Assembly (NCBI RefSeq): GCF_006438965.1 | Contig: NZ_RCZM01000004.1 | Location: 186,001-250,000, forward strand | Source: Pedococcus bigeumensis | GTDB lineage: Bacteria > Actinomycetota > Actinomycetes > Actinomycetales > Dermatophilaceae | Reading direction: 5' to 3' | Length of the DNA stretch: 64,000 bases | Part shown: positions 4,304-21,939 of the stretch, piece after piece | Layout of the letters: each line of letters begins with the position of its first letter | Numbering within the stretch: the first letter of the stretch is position 1 | The notes under the pieces: model-generated | What the model was told of the DNA's origin: nothing | Seen by the model: the letters and a program-made list of their open reading frames with translations, nothing else | Database searches by the model: none | Translations under genes and position numbers: made by a program

Positions 4304-4340
4304 CGTCTTCTCGACGACATCGGTTTGGGGTGAGCTGCGC

Positions 4341-5435
4341 TCAGCCCTCGCGGGCGCCCACGGGTGCCGGCCTGGCATCGGGCGCCTCGGGGGCAGAGGT
4401 GGCGCCACGACGCCAGCGGGCCGGGAGGTGCTTGGCCATCATGGCCGGGCGCTCGACCGCGAACCAGCTCGCGACCGCGAACGGGGTCGTCGCGAGGATC
4501 GAAGCGACGATGAAGCCGACCAGGCCCAGATCCCTCAGCCCGGCCAGGATGAGCAGCTGCTGGACGGGGAACGCGTAGAGGTACATGCCGTAGGAGAAGT
4601 CGTGCGGCGCACCCACCCGCTGGAACACCTTGGGCGCCGCCGCGCCGGCATACAGGAGCAAGTAGGCCAAGGGCAGGGGACCGAGAGGTTCGCCGACGTG
4701 GAGCAGGCACGCGAGGAGCAGCGCCACCGCGGCAACCACGGCACCCTTACCGGTGAGGTGCACCCGGTCAGAGAGGCGGAGCAGCATCATGCCTGCCACG
4801 AAGTAGGGCACCAGGAGGGTCGCCTGGTAGATCGGCCCGGCAGCAGGCCCGACGAGGTGGACGCCGAGCGTGACGGCGGTCGCTCCGACGAAGGCAGCAA
4901 CCGACACCCAGGAGCGCCGCCACAGGATCGCGAGCCCCAGAGCCAGCCCTACCGCGATGTAGCAGAGGACCTCCCACTTGAGCGTCCACAGCGAACCGTT
5001 CCAAGAGCCGGTCAGCGGAGCACCGGCGAGCGTGCGATCGTCGATCGACGAGCCGCCGACCATGTCCGCCGAGCTGAGCACGAACGTCGTGGCGTTCGAT
5101 ACCGACCAGCCGCCACGGACCGTGCCGCCCAACCACGCCGCAACGAAAGCGGTGAACGCCAGCGCGACCCAGTAGCCGGGGAAGATTCGTAGGAACCGTC
5201 TCCACGCATAGCTGATCAGGCTGCTGTTCAGCCGGCTGTGCGAGATGAGGTACCCACTGATGGTGAAGAACCCTCCAACAGCCAGCGTGCCGAGCTTGAT
5301 GTCGCCGAGGTGGGGTTCCGGAGCCAGCCCGGAGATGGGAAAGGCGTGGGACACCATGACGAGAGTTGCCAGTAGCAGCCTGATGGCGTTCAGGCTGTTG
5401 TGGCGCAGGTCGAGGCGTTCGGCCGCGGGCGACAT
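4341..5435 (-). CDS. Membrane acyltransferase 3 family (OafA/YrhL-like)
   Basis: The 364-residue polytopic protein begins with the family hallmark LNAIRLLLATLVMVSHAF, placing the conserved arginine at residue 19 and the essential histidine at residue 30. GFFTISGYLISHSRL and about ten hydrophobic segments follow. Family members move acetyl or other acyl groups across the membrane onto sugars of lipopolysaccharide, peptidoglycan or capsule. It is transcribed divergently from the polymerase-like gene (126-base gap) and converges on the dehydrogenase gene. There is no C-terminal SGNH domain of the OafA type, so another protein may complete the transfer, or it may act alone. Substrate is unknown. 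Confidence 0.87.
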   Translation of the reverse strand: MSPAAERLDLRHNSLNAIRLLLATLVMVSHAFPISGLAPEPHLGDIKLGTLAVGGFFTISGYLISHSRLNSSLISYAWRRFLRIFPGYWVALAFTAFVAAWLGGTVRGGWSVSNATTFVLSSADMVGGSSIDDRTLAGAPLTGSWNGSLWTLKWEVLCYIAVGLALGLAILWRRSWVSVAAFVGATAVTLGVHLVGPAAGPIYQATLLVPYFVAGMMLLRLSDRVHLTGKGAVVAAVALLLACLLHVGEPLGPLPLAYLLLYAGAAAPKVFQRVGAPHDFSYGMYLYAFPVQQLLILAGLRDLGLVGFIVASILATTPFAVASWFAVERPAMMAKHLPARWRRGATSAPEAPDARPAPVGAREG

Positions 5436-18342: not shown

Positions 18343-18343
<1 letters not shown>

Positions 18344-19215
18344 TGACGCGCTGGTTGGTGACGGGTTCGGGCGGCATGCTCGGGCTCGACCTCCAGGTGA
18401 CCCTGGCGCTCGCCGGGGTGTCCGAGGACGACGTCACGGGACTGACCCGGGCCGACCTGGACATCACCGACGCGGACGCCGTCCGTGATGCTGTCCGCGG
18501 CCACGACGTGGTCGTCAACTGCGCGGCATACACCGCGGTTGACGACGCGGAAAGCCATGAGGGACAGGCGTTTTCGGTCAACGCGATCGGCGCTGCCAAC
18601 GTCGCCGACGCGTGCCGCACCTCCGGAGCGCGCCTCGTGCACCTCTCCACCGACTACGTCTTCGCCGGCGACGCCACGGAGCCGTATGCCGAGGACGCAC
18701 CTCTCTCTCCGCTGTCCGCCTATGGGCGGAGCAAGGCCGCGGGGGAGTGGGCGGTCCAGGCACGCTGTCCGCAGGCGTGGATCGTCCGGACGGCCTGGCT
18801 CTACGGCGCGGGTGGGCCGAACTTCGTCAAGACCATGGCGCGACTGGCCGACCGGCACGAGACCCTCGACGTGGTCGCCGACCAGACCGGTCAGCCGACC
18901 TGGACCATGGACGTCGCGCAGGCGATCCTGCGGCTCGTCGACGACGCGGCACCCTTCGGTGTGTGGCACGCGACCAACCAGGGGCAGACGACCAAGTACG
19001 GCCTGACCCAGGAGATCTTCCGCGGCCTCGGGCACGACCCCGAGCGGGTGCGGCCGACGACGAGCGACGCGTTCCCGCTTCCCGCTCCGCGGCCGGCCTA
19101 CAGCGTCCTGGGCCACGACGCCTGGCGGATGGCGCGCCTCGCTCCACTGCCGCCCTGGCAGGAGAGCCTCGCCGCCTCCCTGGCCGACGTGGTGGCGGAG
19201 TCAGCCTCGGAATGA
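18343..19215 (+). CDS. rmlD: dTDP-4-dehydrorhamnose reductase
   Basis: The start is ATG 18343 within the rmlB stop. The 290-residue SDR has VTGSGGMLGLDL, NCAAYTAVDDAES, the active-site strand HLSTDYVFAGD and YGRSKAAGE (YxxxK). Near the end, NQGQTTKYGLTQEIF and PAPRPAYSVLGH are typical RmlD sequence. It reduces the 4-keto group to give dTDP-L-rhamnose. The last codons lie inside a 26-bp sequence that is repeated exactly at 20952, beyond the HNH gene. This suggests the downstream junction was split by an insertion, although the rmlD reading frame itself is intact. Confidence 0.94.
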
Positions 19216-19224
19216 CCTGCGCAG
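19199..19224 (+). repeat. 26-bp direct repeat, left copy
   Basis: The 26 bases from 19199 to 19224 are identical to 20952-20977. This copy contains the rmlD stop codon and also, on the minus strand, the last codons and stop of the gene that now ends at 20954. It therefore carries the overlap of two convergent gene ends. Confidence 0.95.
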
Positions 19225-20951
19225 GAACCAGGTGAGCGCCGGCTGACGAGCGGTCGGGCCTGATCTCGGGCCCCGCCGGCCACAGTAGTCACAACATCGA
19301 GTCGCGTTGTGGGGCAACGGATCTGGGCCTGTGGACAAGCGGCTCGAGGTGTCGGTGGTCGGCCCTAGTGTTGGTCCATGGCGATCGCACCACACAGCAC
19401 AGGAGAGCAGCCCCTTGCGGGTCGCCCGGTGCTGGGCGGCGTGCAGTTGGGGTTGGCCGCGGTGCGCGGTTCGACCCCTGAGCGCATCTGGGCCTTGTCC
19501 GACGCCGAGGTGACCGAGTCCCTGCGAGCCATCGCCGACCTGACCACCGCCACGTCGGCGCTGATGGTGGCGGTGCTGGCCGAGGCGCGCCAGCGCAGCT
19601 TGGGTTCGGGCGAGGGCTGGGGGCCTGTCGACTGGGCGCACTCGCAGGCGCCATTGGTGCCGATGCGCATGCTGCTTGACGCCCAGATCGTCGCGGATGC
19701 GTCGGGGGAGCCGCGGCTCGAGGCGGTGCTCGACGCGGTGCGGGCAGGCCTCGGCAGCGGGCTGGCAGGCGCAGCCCGCGGGTCAGAAGGGTCCGGGTGC
19801 GACGACGCACGACGGGACGACGCGGCATCCGTGCTACCGGTGGGCAAGGCGGCCCAGCTGGTCCGCTTCCACGAGGGGGTGCGCGGGCTGGCTGACGCGG
19901 ACCAGCTCGAGGACGTCACCGGGACGCTCTTGGCCGCGGCACGTGGTGCCGACGGCTTCAGCGAGAGGGACCTCGGCGCGGCGGTGCGGCGCACCGGCGA
20001 CCTCCTGCGTCCCGACCGGTTGGTCGAGCACGACGCCGACGTGCGACGTGCGCACCAGTCGCTGGTCAAGGGCGCGGGGCCGTGCGGGCTCTCCCGCTAC
20101 ACCCTCCTGCTGGACGACGAGGCTGCGGCGATCATCGACTCAGCCATCGACGCGCTGGCCAAACCCGTTCGGACAGAAACCGGCGAGCACGATCCTCGGA
20201 CGCCTGCCGCCCGACGCGCCGACGCCTTGGTCGACCTGGTTCGGCGTGCGGTCTCGGCACCCGATGGACAGCCACGACAGCCGAAGACCACGTTGACCGT
20301 GACGGTGCCGCTGGAGGTGCTGGCCGGACGGTGTCGGGGCGCGGGCGTCCTTCCTGACGGGTCCCACCTGACCGCCGAGACAGTGCGCCGTCTGGCGTGC
20401 GACGCCCAGGTCGTCCCGGCAGTCTTGGGCAGCCACGGCGAGGTGCTCGAGCAGGGACAGGCCGTGCGGCTGTTCACCCGGCCGCAGATCCGCCACCTGT
20501 GGCTGCGCGACGGGCACTGCACGTTTCCGGGCTGCTCGAAGCCGCAGACGTGGACTGACGGACATCACCTGGTCCACTGGGTTGACGATGGCCCGACTGA
20601 CATCGACAACGCAGCCCTGCTCTGTCGGACGCACCATACGGTCGTCCACCGCGAGCGATACGGCGGCCTGGTCGTCGACGGCCCGCATGGACCGCACGTT
20701 GTCTGGGACCTCACACCCAACTCTTACGACGCCCACGTCGAACGGTTCCGCGCTGTGGGAGGTGCCAACGGAGTGCCGCCTCGACCATGACCCTGCGCCA
20801 CACCCCACCCTCGGGTGGGGGCCGAGGCATGTCCCCGCCGTCCTGTTCCGTCCGATCTGGCCGCCCTCAGCGCCACGGGTCCACGGGTGACCTGCGGGTG
20901 CGGTGCGGTGCGGTCAGCGGAGGTGAGGGGCGTGGCAGGCGCGCGCGGCGT
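19225..20951 (+). mobile_element. Candidate DUF222-HNH mobile unit between 26-bp direct repeats
   Basis: The segment lies exactly between two perfect 26-bp repeats and holds a single intact gene of the DUF222-HNH (13E12 repeat) family. Deleting it together with one repeat would leave rmlD and the nucleotidyltransferase-like gene ending tail to tail with a 15-base overlap. That fits insertion into a former convergent junction. Related REP13E12 elements in Mycobacterium tuberculosis are dispersed repeats and serve as phage attachment sites. No transposase, integrase or clear terminal inverted repeat is visible, so the mechanism is unknown. Confidence 0.6.
19378..20790 (+). CDS. DUF222 / HNH endonuclease domain protein (13E12 repeat family)
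   Basis: The 470-residue protein starts at ATG 19378. Residues about 35-330 are an Ala/Leu/Arg-rich helical region of the DUF222 type. From about residue 370, LWLRDGHCTFPGCSKP leads into an HNH nuclease: paired cysteines in CTFPGC (from Cys381), the catalytic histidines in DGHHLVHW, then DNAALLCRTHH and a final VVH. All metal and catalytic positions look intact. The family is abundant in Actinobacteria, often in several copies, and its cellular role is not established. Flanking 26-bp direct repeats suggest that it moves or is moved. Confidence 0.88.
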   Translation: MAIAPHSTGEQPLAGRPVLGGVQLGLAAVRGSTPERIWALSDAEVTESLRAIADLTTATSALMVAVLAEARQRSLGSGEGWGPVDWAHSQAPLVPMRMLLDAQIVADASGEPRLEAVLDAVRAGLGSGLAGAARGSEGSGCDDARRDDAASVLPVGKAAQLVRFHEGVRGLADADQLEDVTGTLLAAARGADGFSERDLGAAVRRTGDLLRPDRLVEHDADVRRAHQSLVKGAGPCGLSRYTLLLDDEAAAIIDSAIDALAKPVRTETGEHDPRTPAARRADALVDLVRRAVSAPDGQPRQPKTTLTVTVPLEVLAGRCRGAGVLPDGSHLTAETVRRLACDAQVVPAVLGSHGEVLEQGQAVRLFTRPQIRHLWLRDGHCTFPGCSKPQTWTDGHHLVHWVDDGPTDIDNAALLCRTHHTVVHRERYGGLVVDGPHGPHVVWDLTPNSYDAHVERFRAVGGANGVPPRP

Positions 20952-20977
20952 AGTCAGCCTCGGAATGACCTGCGCAG
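20952..20977 (+). repeat. 26-bp direct repeat, right copy
   Basis: This is identical to 19199-19224. It contains the stop and final codons of the minus-strand gene at 20954-21880 and a copy of the last four sense codons and stop of rmlD on the plus strand. The two copies start 1753 bases apart. Confidence 0.95.
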
Positions 20978-21880
20978 CTCCCGGACGACGGACATCGAAC
21001 GGGGCAGCGTGGCGATGCCGTGTCGCCACCGTCTCAGGTGCAGCACCGCCACGTCTTTGCGCGAGGCGCTGTCTACCAGGTGCGAGCTCAGGAGCTCCTC
21101 ACGACGTGGGACGGCGGCACGCATCAGCACGCCGGGACGCTCGCGCCACGTCGCACGACTGAGCTGTTCGATCCACAGTGACCCGGCAGCTTCGGCGTAG
21201 CGTTGACGCAGTTCCCAGCTGTGTAGCAGCCGCGAATCAGCCGGAGCTGGGAGGTCAGCACCGGCGCTGAGCAAGAGCGGCCGGGCGGTGTCAGCTGCGC
21301 CGGCTGCGAGGGCGAGCTCGACCAGGTCGTGCTTCTGTCCTTCGTCGAGGTGGCCCAGGGCAGTCGCCAGGTGGCCAAGATCCTGCTGGCTGGTTGCTTT
21401 GTCGGGGTCCCTCAGGGCGTGCAGTGCGACGACGAGCGCCTGGCCCGATGCCGATGGGCTGGGCACTGCGCGCCCGGCGATCTCGACGGTGGTGTGGGAC
21501 GCCCACAGTGCCTCGAACACCTCAGCCTCCGACGCGAGGAAGCCGGGGAAGGAGTAGTGCACGTCGAGGTCGCACGGCCACTCCGGGTGGATGAAGTGCG
21601 CGGAGTGCTCGAACGCCAGGTCGGCTGCGCGCCGCAACCCCGTGCCGGTGTTTCGTCGCTGCCAGCCGCAGCCTTCCAGTGCAGCGCACAGCGCGTCGAA
21701 CCCGCCCCGGTCAGCCAGCACGTCCACGTCGGTCGACGGTCGGTCCGGCCGGACTCCGAGCGCGACAGCCGTCGGGCCCTTGATGAAAAGGATCCGTGCC
21801 CCGGCGTCGTCCGCGAGCCGGGCGACGAGGGCATGGGCCAACAACACCGCCTCCTGCTGGTGGAGCGTGGTCGTCGCCAT
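20954..21880 (-). CDS. Nucleotidyltransferase-like protein (NTP_transf_5-type)
   Basis: The product of about 308 residues has a core resembling uncharacterised nucleotidyltransferases of the NTP_transf_5 kind. ILFIKGPTAVALGV is followed by a paired-aspartate motif STDVDVLAD, and a third acidic position occurs in DLDVHYSF. Those residues would bind metal and nucleotide. I choose ATG 21880; an in-frame GTG at 21904 would add eight residues. Members of this family often sit in polysaccharide loci and their substrates are unknown. Its 3' end lies in the 26-bp repeat. It is divergent from the oxidoreductase gene, with 59 bases between starts. Confidence 0.72.
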   Translation of the reverse strand: MATTTLHQQEAVLLAHALVARLADDAGARILFIKGPTAVALGVRPDRPSTDVDVLADRGGFDALCAALEGCGWQRRNTGTGLRRAADLAFEHSAHFIHPEWPCDLDVHYSFPGFLASEAEVFEALWASHTTVEIAGRAVPSPSASGQALVVALHALRDPDKATSQQDLGHLATALGHLDEGQKHDLVELALAAGAADTARPLLLSAGADLPAPADSRLLHSWELRQRYAEAAGSLWIEQLSRATWRERPGVLMRAAVPRREELLSSHLVDSASRKDVAVLHLRRWRHGIATLPRSMSVVRELRRSFRG

Positions 21881-21939
21881 GGTGCGGAGTATGACATCGG
21901 CCACGGCGAGGGCGCGCAGACTCCGGCTAGGGTCGGGCC

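Follow-up and report, generated by a model that had tools for sequence, protein, structure and literature searches.

Genes and repeats at the locus

The window, which denotes the whole 64-kb stretch of DNA analysed, carries a DUF222-HNH nuclease gene between the convergent genes rmlD and NTP_transf_5, with one copy of a direct repeat at each border. The features of the locus are as follows.

18343..19215, plus strand: rmlD (dTDP-4-dehydrorhamnose reductase; Pfam RmlD_sub_bind, 327.4 bits), with its stop codon inside the left repeat
19199..19224, no strand: left repeat copy, 26 bases, or 31 with one mismatch from 19194
19225..20951, plus strand: inserted segment of 1727 bases (153 bases upstream, the DUF222 gene and 161 bases downstream)
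19330..19338, minus strand: TTGTCCACA, a DnaA-box-like nonamer inside the insert, 40-48 bases upstream of the DUF222 start codon
19378..20790, plus strand: intact DUF222-HNH nuclease gene, 470 aa (Pfam DUF222, 81.9 bits; HNH, 26.6 bits)
20530..20652, plus strand: HNH domain, residues 385-425, with the C..PGC, HH, N and C..HH positions all present
20952..20977, no strand: right repeat copy, 26 bases, or 31 with one mismatch from 20947
20954..21904, minus strand: NTP_transf_5 (uncharacterised nucleotidyltransferase; Pfam, 42.5 bits), convergent to rmlD, with its stop codon inside the right repeat

A comparison of the two borders reveals that positions 19199-19224 and 20952-20977 agree at all 26 bases, as direct copies with a start-to-start distance of 1753 bases. 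Extension in the 5' direction retains agreement at 30 of 31 bases with a single mismatch (19194-19224 versus 20947-20977). The identical 26-bp repeat that an earlier note had described around the DUF222-HNH gene is therefore exact, and a search of the whole genome (4,223,823 bases, up to 3 mismatches) finds it at these two places only; 100 shuffles of the window yield no match to it. Each copy contains the stop codons of both flanking genes, as the earlier note had claimed and as the ORF ends at 19215 (plus) and 20954 (minus) bear out. When 26 + 1727 bases are removed, the NTP_transf_5 stop moves to 19201 and, by the ORF coordinates, rmlD and NTP_transf_5 share 15 bases at their tails, which is the value previously given.

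The inserted protein comprises a Pfam DUF222 domain at residues 168-378 and an HNH domain at residues 385-425, both above the cut-off. The dN/dS ratio between this gene and its counterpart in a genome of the same genus (G010) is approximately 0.19, and the gene, with its HNH motif intact, is under purifying selection. The DUF222-HNH gene is the sole gene of the insert, and no transposase or integrase domain is detected there by Pfam. The inverted-repeat search reveals no pair linking the two ends of the insert, which means that no terminal inverted repeats are found. Comparisons of the insert with defence families (PADLOC, E up to 1) and with NCBIfam (threshold 0.01) give no match, and the PHROG search gives a single weak HNH match (E 0.0074). 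A scan for promoter and terminator consensus sequences returns nothing. A GC-only hairpin, CCCCACCC-TC-GGGTGGGG, can be read from the sequence at 20803-20820, just 3' of the DUF222 stop codon, and inspection by eye indicates that many DUF222 genes of the subfamily are followed on the 3' side by a similar GC stem and then a GGCATG-like sequence.

Empty and filled junctions in the genus

Ten other genomes of the same genus were used for comparison. The rmlD orthologues are 74-87% identical in nine of them, in which the junction was mapped, and G006 is without a close one. In the window, a zinc-binding dehydrogenase gene comes next after NTP_transf_5. In G002, G008 and G009, rmlD, NTP_transf_5 and the dehydrogenase gene are in place without a DUF222 gene, so that three of the ten genomes are empty at this site. 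G010 holds a DUF222 gene at the same rmlD/NTP_transf_5 junction, in the same gene order as the window. The NTP_transf_5 counterparts in these four genomes are located at the same place and are 52-55% identical. A methyltransferase-like gene (identified by eye) occupies this place instead in G003 and G007, and rmlD is directly followed by the dehydrogenase gene in G001, G004 and G005.

The empty junction of G008 exhibits an overlap of the rmlD and NTP_transf_5 tails of 15 bases, which is the ancestral-type arrangement reconstructed for the window, and the stop codons in the empty junctions of G002 and G009 are 5 and 8 bases apart. Because the overlap in G008 is also 15 bases, and because the NTP_transf_5 C-termini are similar in length (VRELRRSFRG in the window, LRKVRRSADG in G008), the 26 bases are probably derived from the tails of the host genes and would represent host junction sequence rather than a part of the element, a reading based on one matching relative. 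The earlier note had proposed that the unit entered a convergent gene junction without damage to either reading frame, and had suggested that relatives be examined for an empty site; this proposal is supported, as three such junctions exist, one with the same 15-base overlap. The HNH gene is not carried by all relatives, and the 26 bp are not a dispersed repeat.

The possibility that the repeat is an assembly artefact bears on a structure seen in a single genome. However, the copies are just 26 bases long, the genome has no second, near-identical copy of the insert that could force a false join (the best paralogue in it is 65% identical), and G010 displays the same gene order, which makes this explanation exceedingly improbable.

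Alleles with and without the DUF222 gene thus occur at one site in relatives, as is expected of a homing endonuclease gene. In G010, the longest piece common to the two sides of the DUF222 gene is 10 bases near the junctions and 14 bases within 700 bases, the latter being equal to the control maximum. Within the insert of the window, no remnants of donor flanks are recognised.

Age and descent of the insertion

In the genus tree built from rmlD and the dehydrogenase gene, the genome of the window groups with G002 (support 97/95), the junction of which is empty, and this nearest relative counts in favour of a recent insertion. G010 is placed elsewhere in the same tree, with G004 (support 95/95). 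In the DUF222 tree, the gene of the window is sister to that of G010 (SH-aLRT 100), which at 74% identity is the closest relative found. Between the window and G010, dS is 1.03 for DUF222 and 1.07 for NTP_transf_5, whereas rmlD and the dehydrogenase gene have values of 0.68 and 0.66, respectively. The tree path between the two is 0.49 for DUF222 versus approximately 0.39, obtained by summation, for rmlD plus the dehydrogenase gene. A divergence of this size could also have built up by plain descent of the two DUF222 genes from the common ancestor, in which case the insertion would be old; the dS values are compatible with descent, transfer and two insertions alike.

Because the repeat is perfect, the insertion is suggested to be recent. 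The sister copy at the same junction in G010 counts against this. If the insertion were instead old, shared with G010 by descent and subsequently lost from G002, G008 and G009, the repeat would be either a preserved ancient duplication or two copies homogenised afterwards, for instance by gene conversion. Such a history would account for the sister relationship of two DUF222 genes at one site, it is compatible with their divergence, and clear orthology between species is seen at some other DUF222 loci (L087/L092 and L063/L095/L097). However, G010 retains no repeat, perfect identity over 26 bases outside the shared coding constraint is hard to maintain over a dS near 1, and the 15-base overlap in G008 equals the reconstructed one. 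We consider an old insertion quite unlikely.

With respect to the neighbouring gene, the dS of NTP_transf_5 against the sister genome G002 is 1.31, compared with 0.64 for rmlD, and five genomes of the genus lack the gene here. Because of this excess and these absences, the NTP_transf_5 gene may also have been exchanged.

The DUF222-HNH family and its flanks

There are 14 DUF222 matches in the genome of the window, 3-19 per genome and 105 in total in the 11 genomes of the genus, so DUF222-HNH genes rank among the most multiplied genes of this genus. The best paralogue of the inserted gene in its own genome is 65% identical. The outer parts of the insert, the repeat itself aside, have no match longer than 33 bases elsewhere in the 11 genomes. 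No donor copy is found in the sampled genomes, and the incoming unit most likely came from outside these by horizontal transfer. A plasmid search with the locus returned, among the best 10 of 38 records, rmlD-like or dehydrogenase-like pieces only.

The best young paralogue pairs, L061/L062 and L082/L089 from the genus and L295/L296 from another genus, have in common the gene, roughly 130-140 bases upstream and 30-50 bases downstream, and at 8 loci from young pairs the edges are free of direct repeats longer than 8 bases. The dispersed unit, as judged from these pairs, is hardly larger than the gene, and its dispersal leaves no regular footprint. The likeness to dispersed REP13E12-type genes drawn in the earlier note holds in this respect, as the paralogues are numerous and share little beyond the gene. 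Some DUF222 loci are plainly orthologous across species, including those named above. Additionally, the DUF222 copy of L059 in the genome of the window, which lies at the first base of contig C13 and is cut by the contig end, is 98% identical to that of L056; this is a recent duplication that breaks the assembly.

In an ungapped test of 250 bases upstream against 260 bases downstream, 118 of 127 distinct DUF222 loci, those with 300 bases on either side, were scored. The window gives a score of 28, followed by 15, 14, 13 and lower values, whereas 1172 random pairings of DUF222 left and right flanks do not exceed 16. A family-wide target duplication is ruled out by this result, with one locus of 118 (the window) above the random pairings, and the other 117 loci display neither a shared repeat nor a fixed duplication length. 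Exact flank repeats within 700 bases of 61 genus rows, the window aside, are at most 14 bases long, equal to those of 70 control ORFs; these rows represent 60 distinct genes, the weaker matches among the 105 being left out. The longest flank repeat is 15 bases among 88 further family loci (79 of them flanked by 500 bases or more on either side, with some duplicates) and 12 bases in the genome_contigs set, in which 33 of 47 loci have a DUF222 ORF and 28 are fully flanked. The 15-base repeat of L330 (G049) was considered as a second case and discounted, as a score of at least 15 is reached by 5 of the 1172 random pairings. This repeat is located at 2289-2303 and 4338-4352, or -102 and +100 relative to the DUF222 gene; G050 and G027 have empty sites, and a 10-base part of it is found once in the empty site of G050.

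Because only the window exceeds the random pairings among the 118 loci, there is no family rule and no shared recombination core. Target duplication is not a regular product of DUF222 dispersal, young copies included. These results do not support recombination at a core site, which would leave a common core at other copies and is one of the two routes favoured by the earlier note; the note had also suggested testing each DUF222-HNH gene for direct repeats of its own target, and these are not found outside the window. An integration through a 26-base core common to the element and the chromosome, resembling phage attachment, would be in keeping with the length and perfection of the repeat. However, DUF222-HNH is the only gene of the unit and no integrase is present, the core is absent from the rest of the genome (at 3 mismatches) and from the other DUF222 loci, and the 26 bases are accounted for as host gene tails. 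Such site-specific recombination is very improbable.

A second site of recurrent occupation

The flanks of the genus loci were compared, and 19-kb regions of all 11 genomes were mapped (L240-L250). An MMPL gene lies upstream of an aldo-keto reductase gene in six genomes, and a DUF222 gene is located between the two in four of them (G002, G005, G008 and G010), either alone or with other genes; none is present at this site in the genome of the window or in G009. These four DUF222 genes belong to different subfamilies. As they are 43-58% identical to one another and branch at separate places in the tree, they do not represent simple orthologues. A fifth DUF222 gene is located directly upstream of the reductase in G006, without the MMPL gene. 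The interval also takes other genes and may be a general hotspot. In the genome of the window (C12, approximately 13.1-16.0 kb), a DUF222 gene that is 81% identical to that of G005 lies upstream of the MMPL gene.

The recurrence bears on HNH-driven homing, the second route favoured by the earlier note. In a homing-like transfer, a DUF222-HNH lineage specific to the rmlD/NTP_transf_5 junction would cut empty alleles and be copied into them from the filled allele of a species resembling G010, and the duplication would arise incidentally when repair is one-sided or error-prone. Homing in its ordinary form does not duplicate the target, no sequence from donor flanks is recognised within the insert, and the G010 copy is without the repeat; on the other hand, sister DUF222 genes fill the same junction in two separated lineages with empty relatives between them, the HNH domain is intact, and the MMPL/reductase site is occupied in four of the six genomes with both flanks, although that interval admits other genes too. 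The homing proposal gains some support from the position of the closest DUF222 relative, but the copy in G010 lacks the repeat, and we consider homing rather unlikely as an explanation of the insertion. The observation of the earlier note is confirmed, and its interpretation is partly supported.

A DnaA-box-like nonamer upstream of DUF222 genes

The nonamer TTRTCCACA, which we take to be the DnaA-box consensus, occurs once in the 64-kb window, within the insert, with 0.13 occurrences expected. Of 123 distinct DUF222 genes with sufficient flanking sequence, 27 have it in the 200 bases upstream (the genes are related, so that the 27 are not independent), versus 8 of 735 other ORFs of the genus loci, which were called mechanically and include some that are not genes. 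Permuted nonamers give a mean of 0.12 hits and a maximum of 23, which equals the count of the motif itself and presumably comes from the permutation that restores it. As far as these related genes allow, DUF222 genes thus show an upstream enrichment of TTGTCCACA boxes. No paper linking the HNH endonuclease, 13E12 and DnaA was found in a limited search of the open literature.

Proposed capture at a staggered break

Our preferred explanation, to which we give moderate confidence, is that a DUF222-HNH unit of approximately 1.7 kb recently entered the tail-to-tail overlap of rmlD and NTP_transf_5 through capture at a break, duplicating 26 (perhaps 31) bases. The absence of a repeat beyond random pairings from each of the other 117 DUF222 loci scored counts against it, as does the sister copy in G010. 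Break capture is proposed because the insert has no transposase, integrase, inverted termini or near copy and because a Ku gene is present in the genome. The unit would have arrived by horizontal transfer from outside the sampled genomes, and a staggered double-strand break would have opened the overlapping tails. The DUF222 DNA would then have been captured in the break, and gap filling followed by end joining would have sealed it with a one-off, long target duplication of 26 bases, originally perhaps 31. As both stop codons fall within the duplicated bases, rmlD and NTP_transf_5 keep their native tails. Both nicks may be the work of the HNH protein, a plausible candidate for the cutter. With the closest relative occupying this junction in G010, a homing-like preference for the site is also conceivable.

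A broader generalisation, which we consider rather unlikely as it stands, is that each DUF222-HNH gene acts by itself as a mobile element of actinobacterial chromosomes that returns to particular sites. The HNH nuclease would nick the two strands far apart at intergenic sites that it favours, such as gene tails and terminator regions, and a unit with a DnaA-box-like promoter box would be copied into the break. The long duplications present at first would soon be lost, and unrelated DUF222 genes would hence reoccupy the same junctions in different species.

Comparison with known systems

The short, gene-sized insert and its target duplication resemble those of insertion sequences and DNA transposons. 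The usual target duplications of DNA transposons are shorter than 26-31 bases, and the insert further differs from these elements in the absence of terminal inverted repeats, of a transposase domain and of a fixed duplication length.

Free-standing HNH homing endonucleases of the phage T4-like kind home by homologous repair, without target duplication. The DUF222-HNH genes are similar to such homing genes in that they are intergenic, lack a transposase of their own, are patchy in relatives and recur at one site. In contrast, a target duplication is present in the window, and any cleavage specificity of the inserted protein is putative.

Ku-dependent end-joining capture at double-strand breaks gives a one-off target duplication of variable length, and the window agrees with it in its one-off duplication and in the Ku encoded in the genome. 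The recurrence of DUF222 genes at the same sites differs from plain break capture, which alone leaves it unexplained.

In gene content, the insert resembles the REP13E12 (13E12) family of Mycobacterium, a member of the DUF222-HNH family, which has the same pair of DUF222 and HNH domains, is multicopy and dispersed, and has a unit of about gene size. Published work describes 87 gene conversion events between copies of REP13E12 (PMC13061034) and the repetitiveness of these copies (PMC10589994), and the portions of the REP13E12 and DUF222 literature covered by a limited search of open papers describe no insertion mechanism or target duplication. Unlike REP13E12 as described, the inserted copy is bordered by perfect direct repeats of probable host origin where two gene tails overlap, and no attachment-site role, prophage or integrase is seen between the two repeats. 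The locus therefore offers a clean insertion footprint, so far one-off and without a family rule, for a known kind of dispersed gene, and the filled site together with its empty relatives provides an exact target for a cleavage assay.
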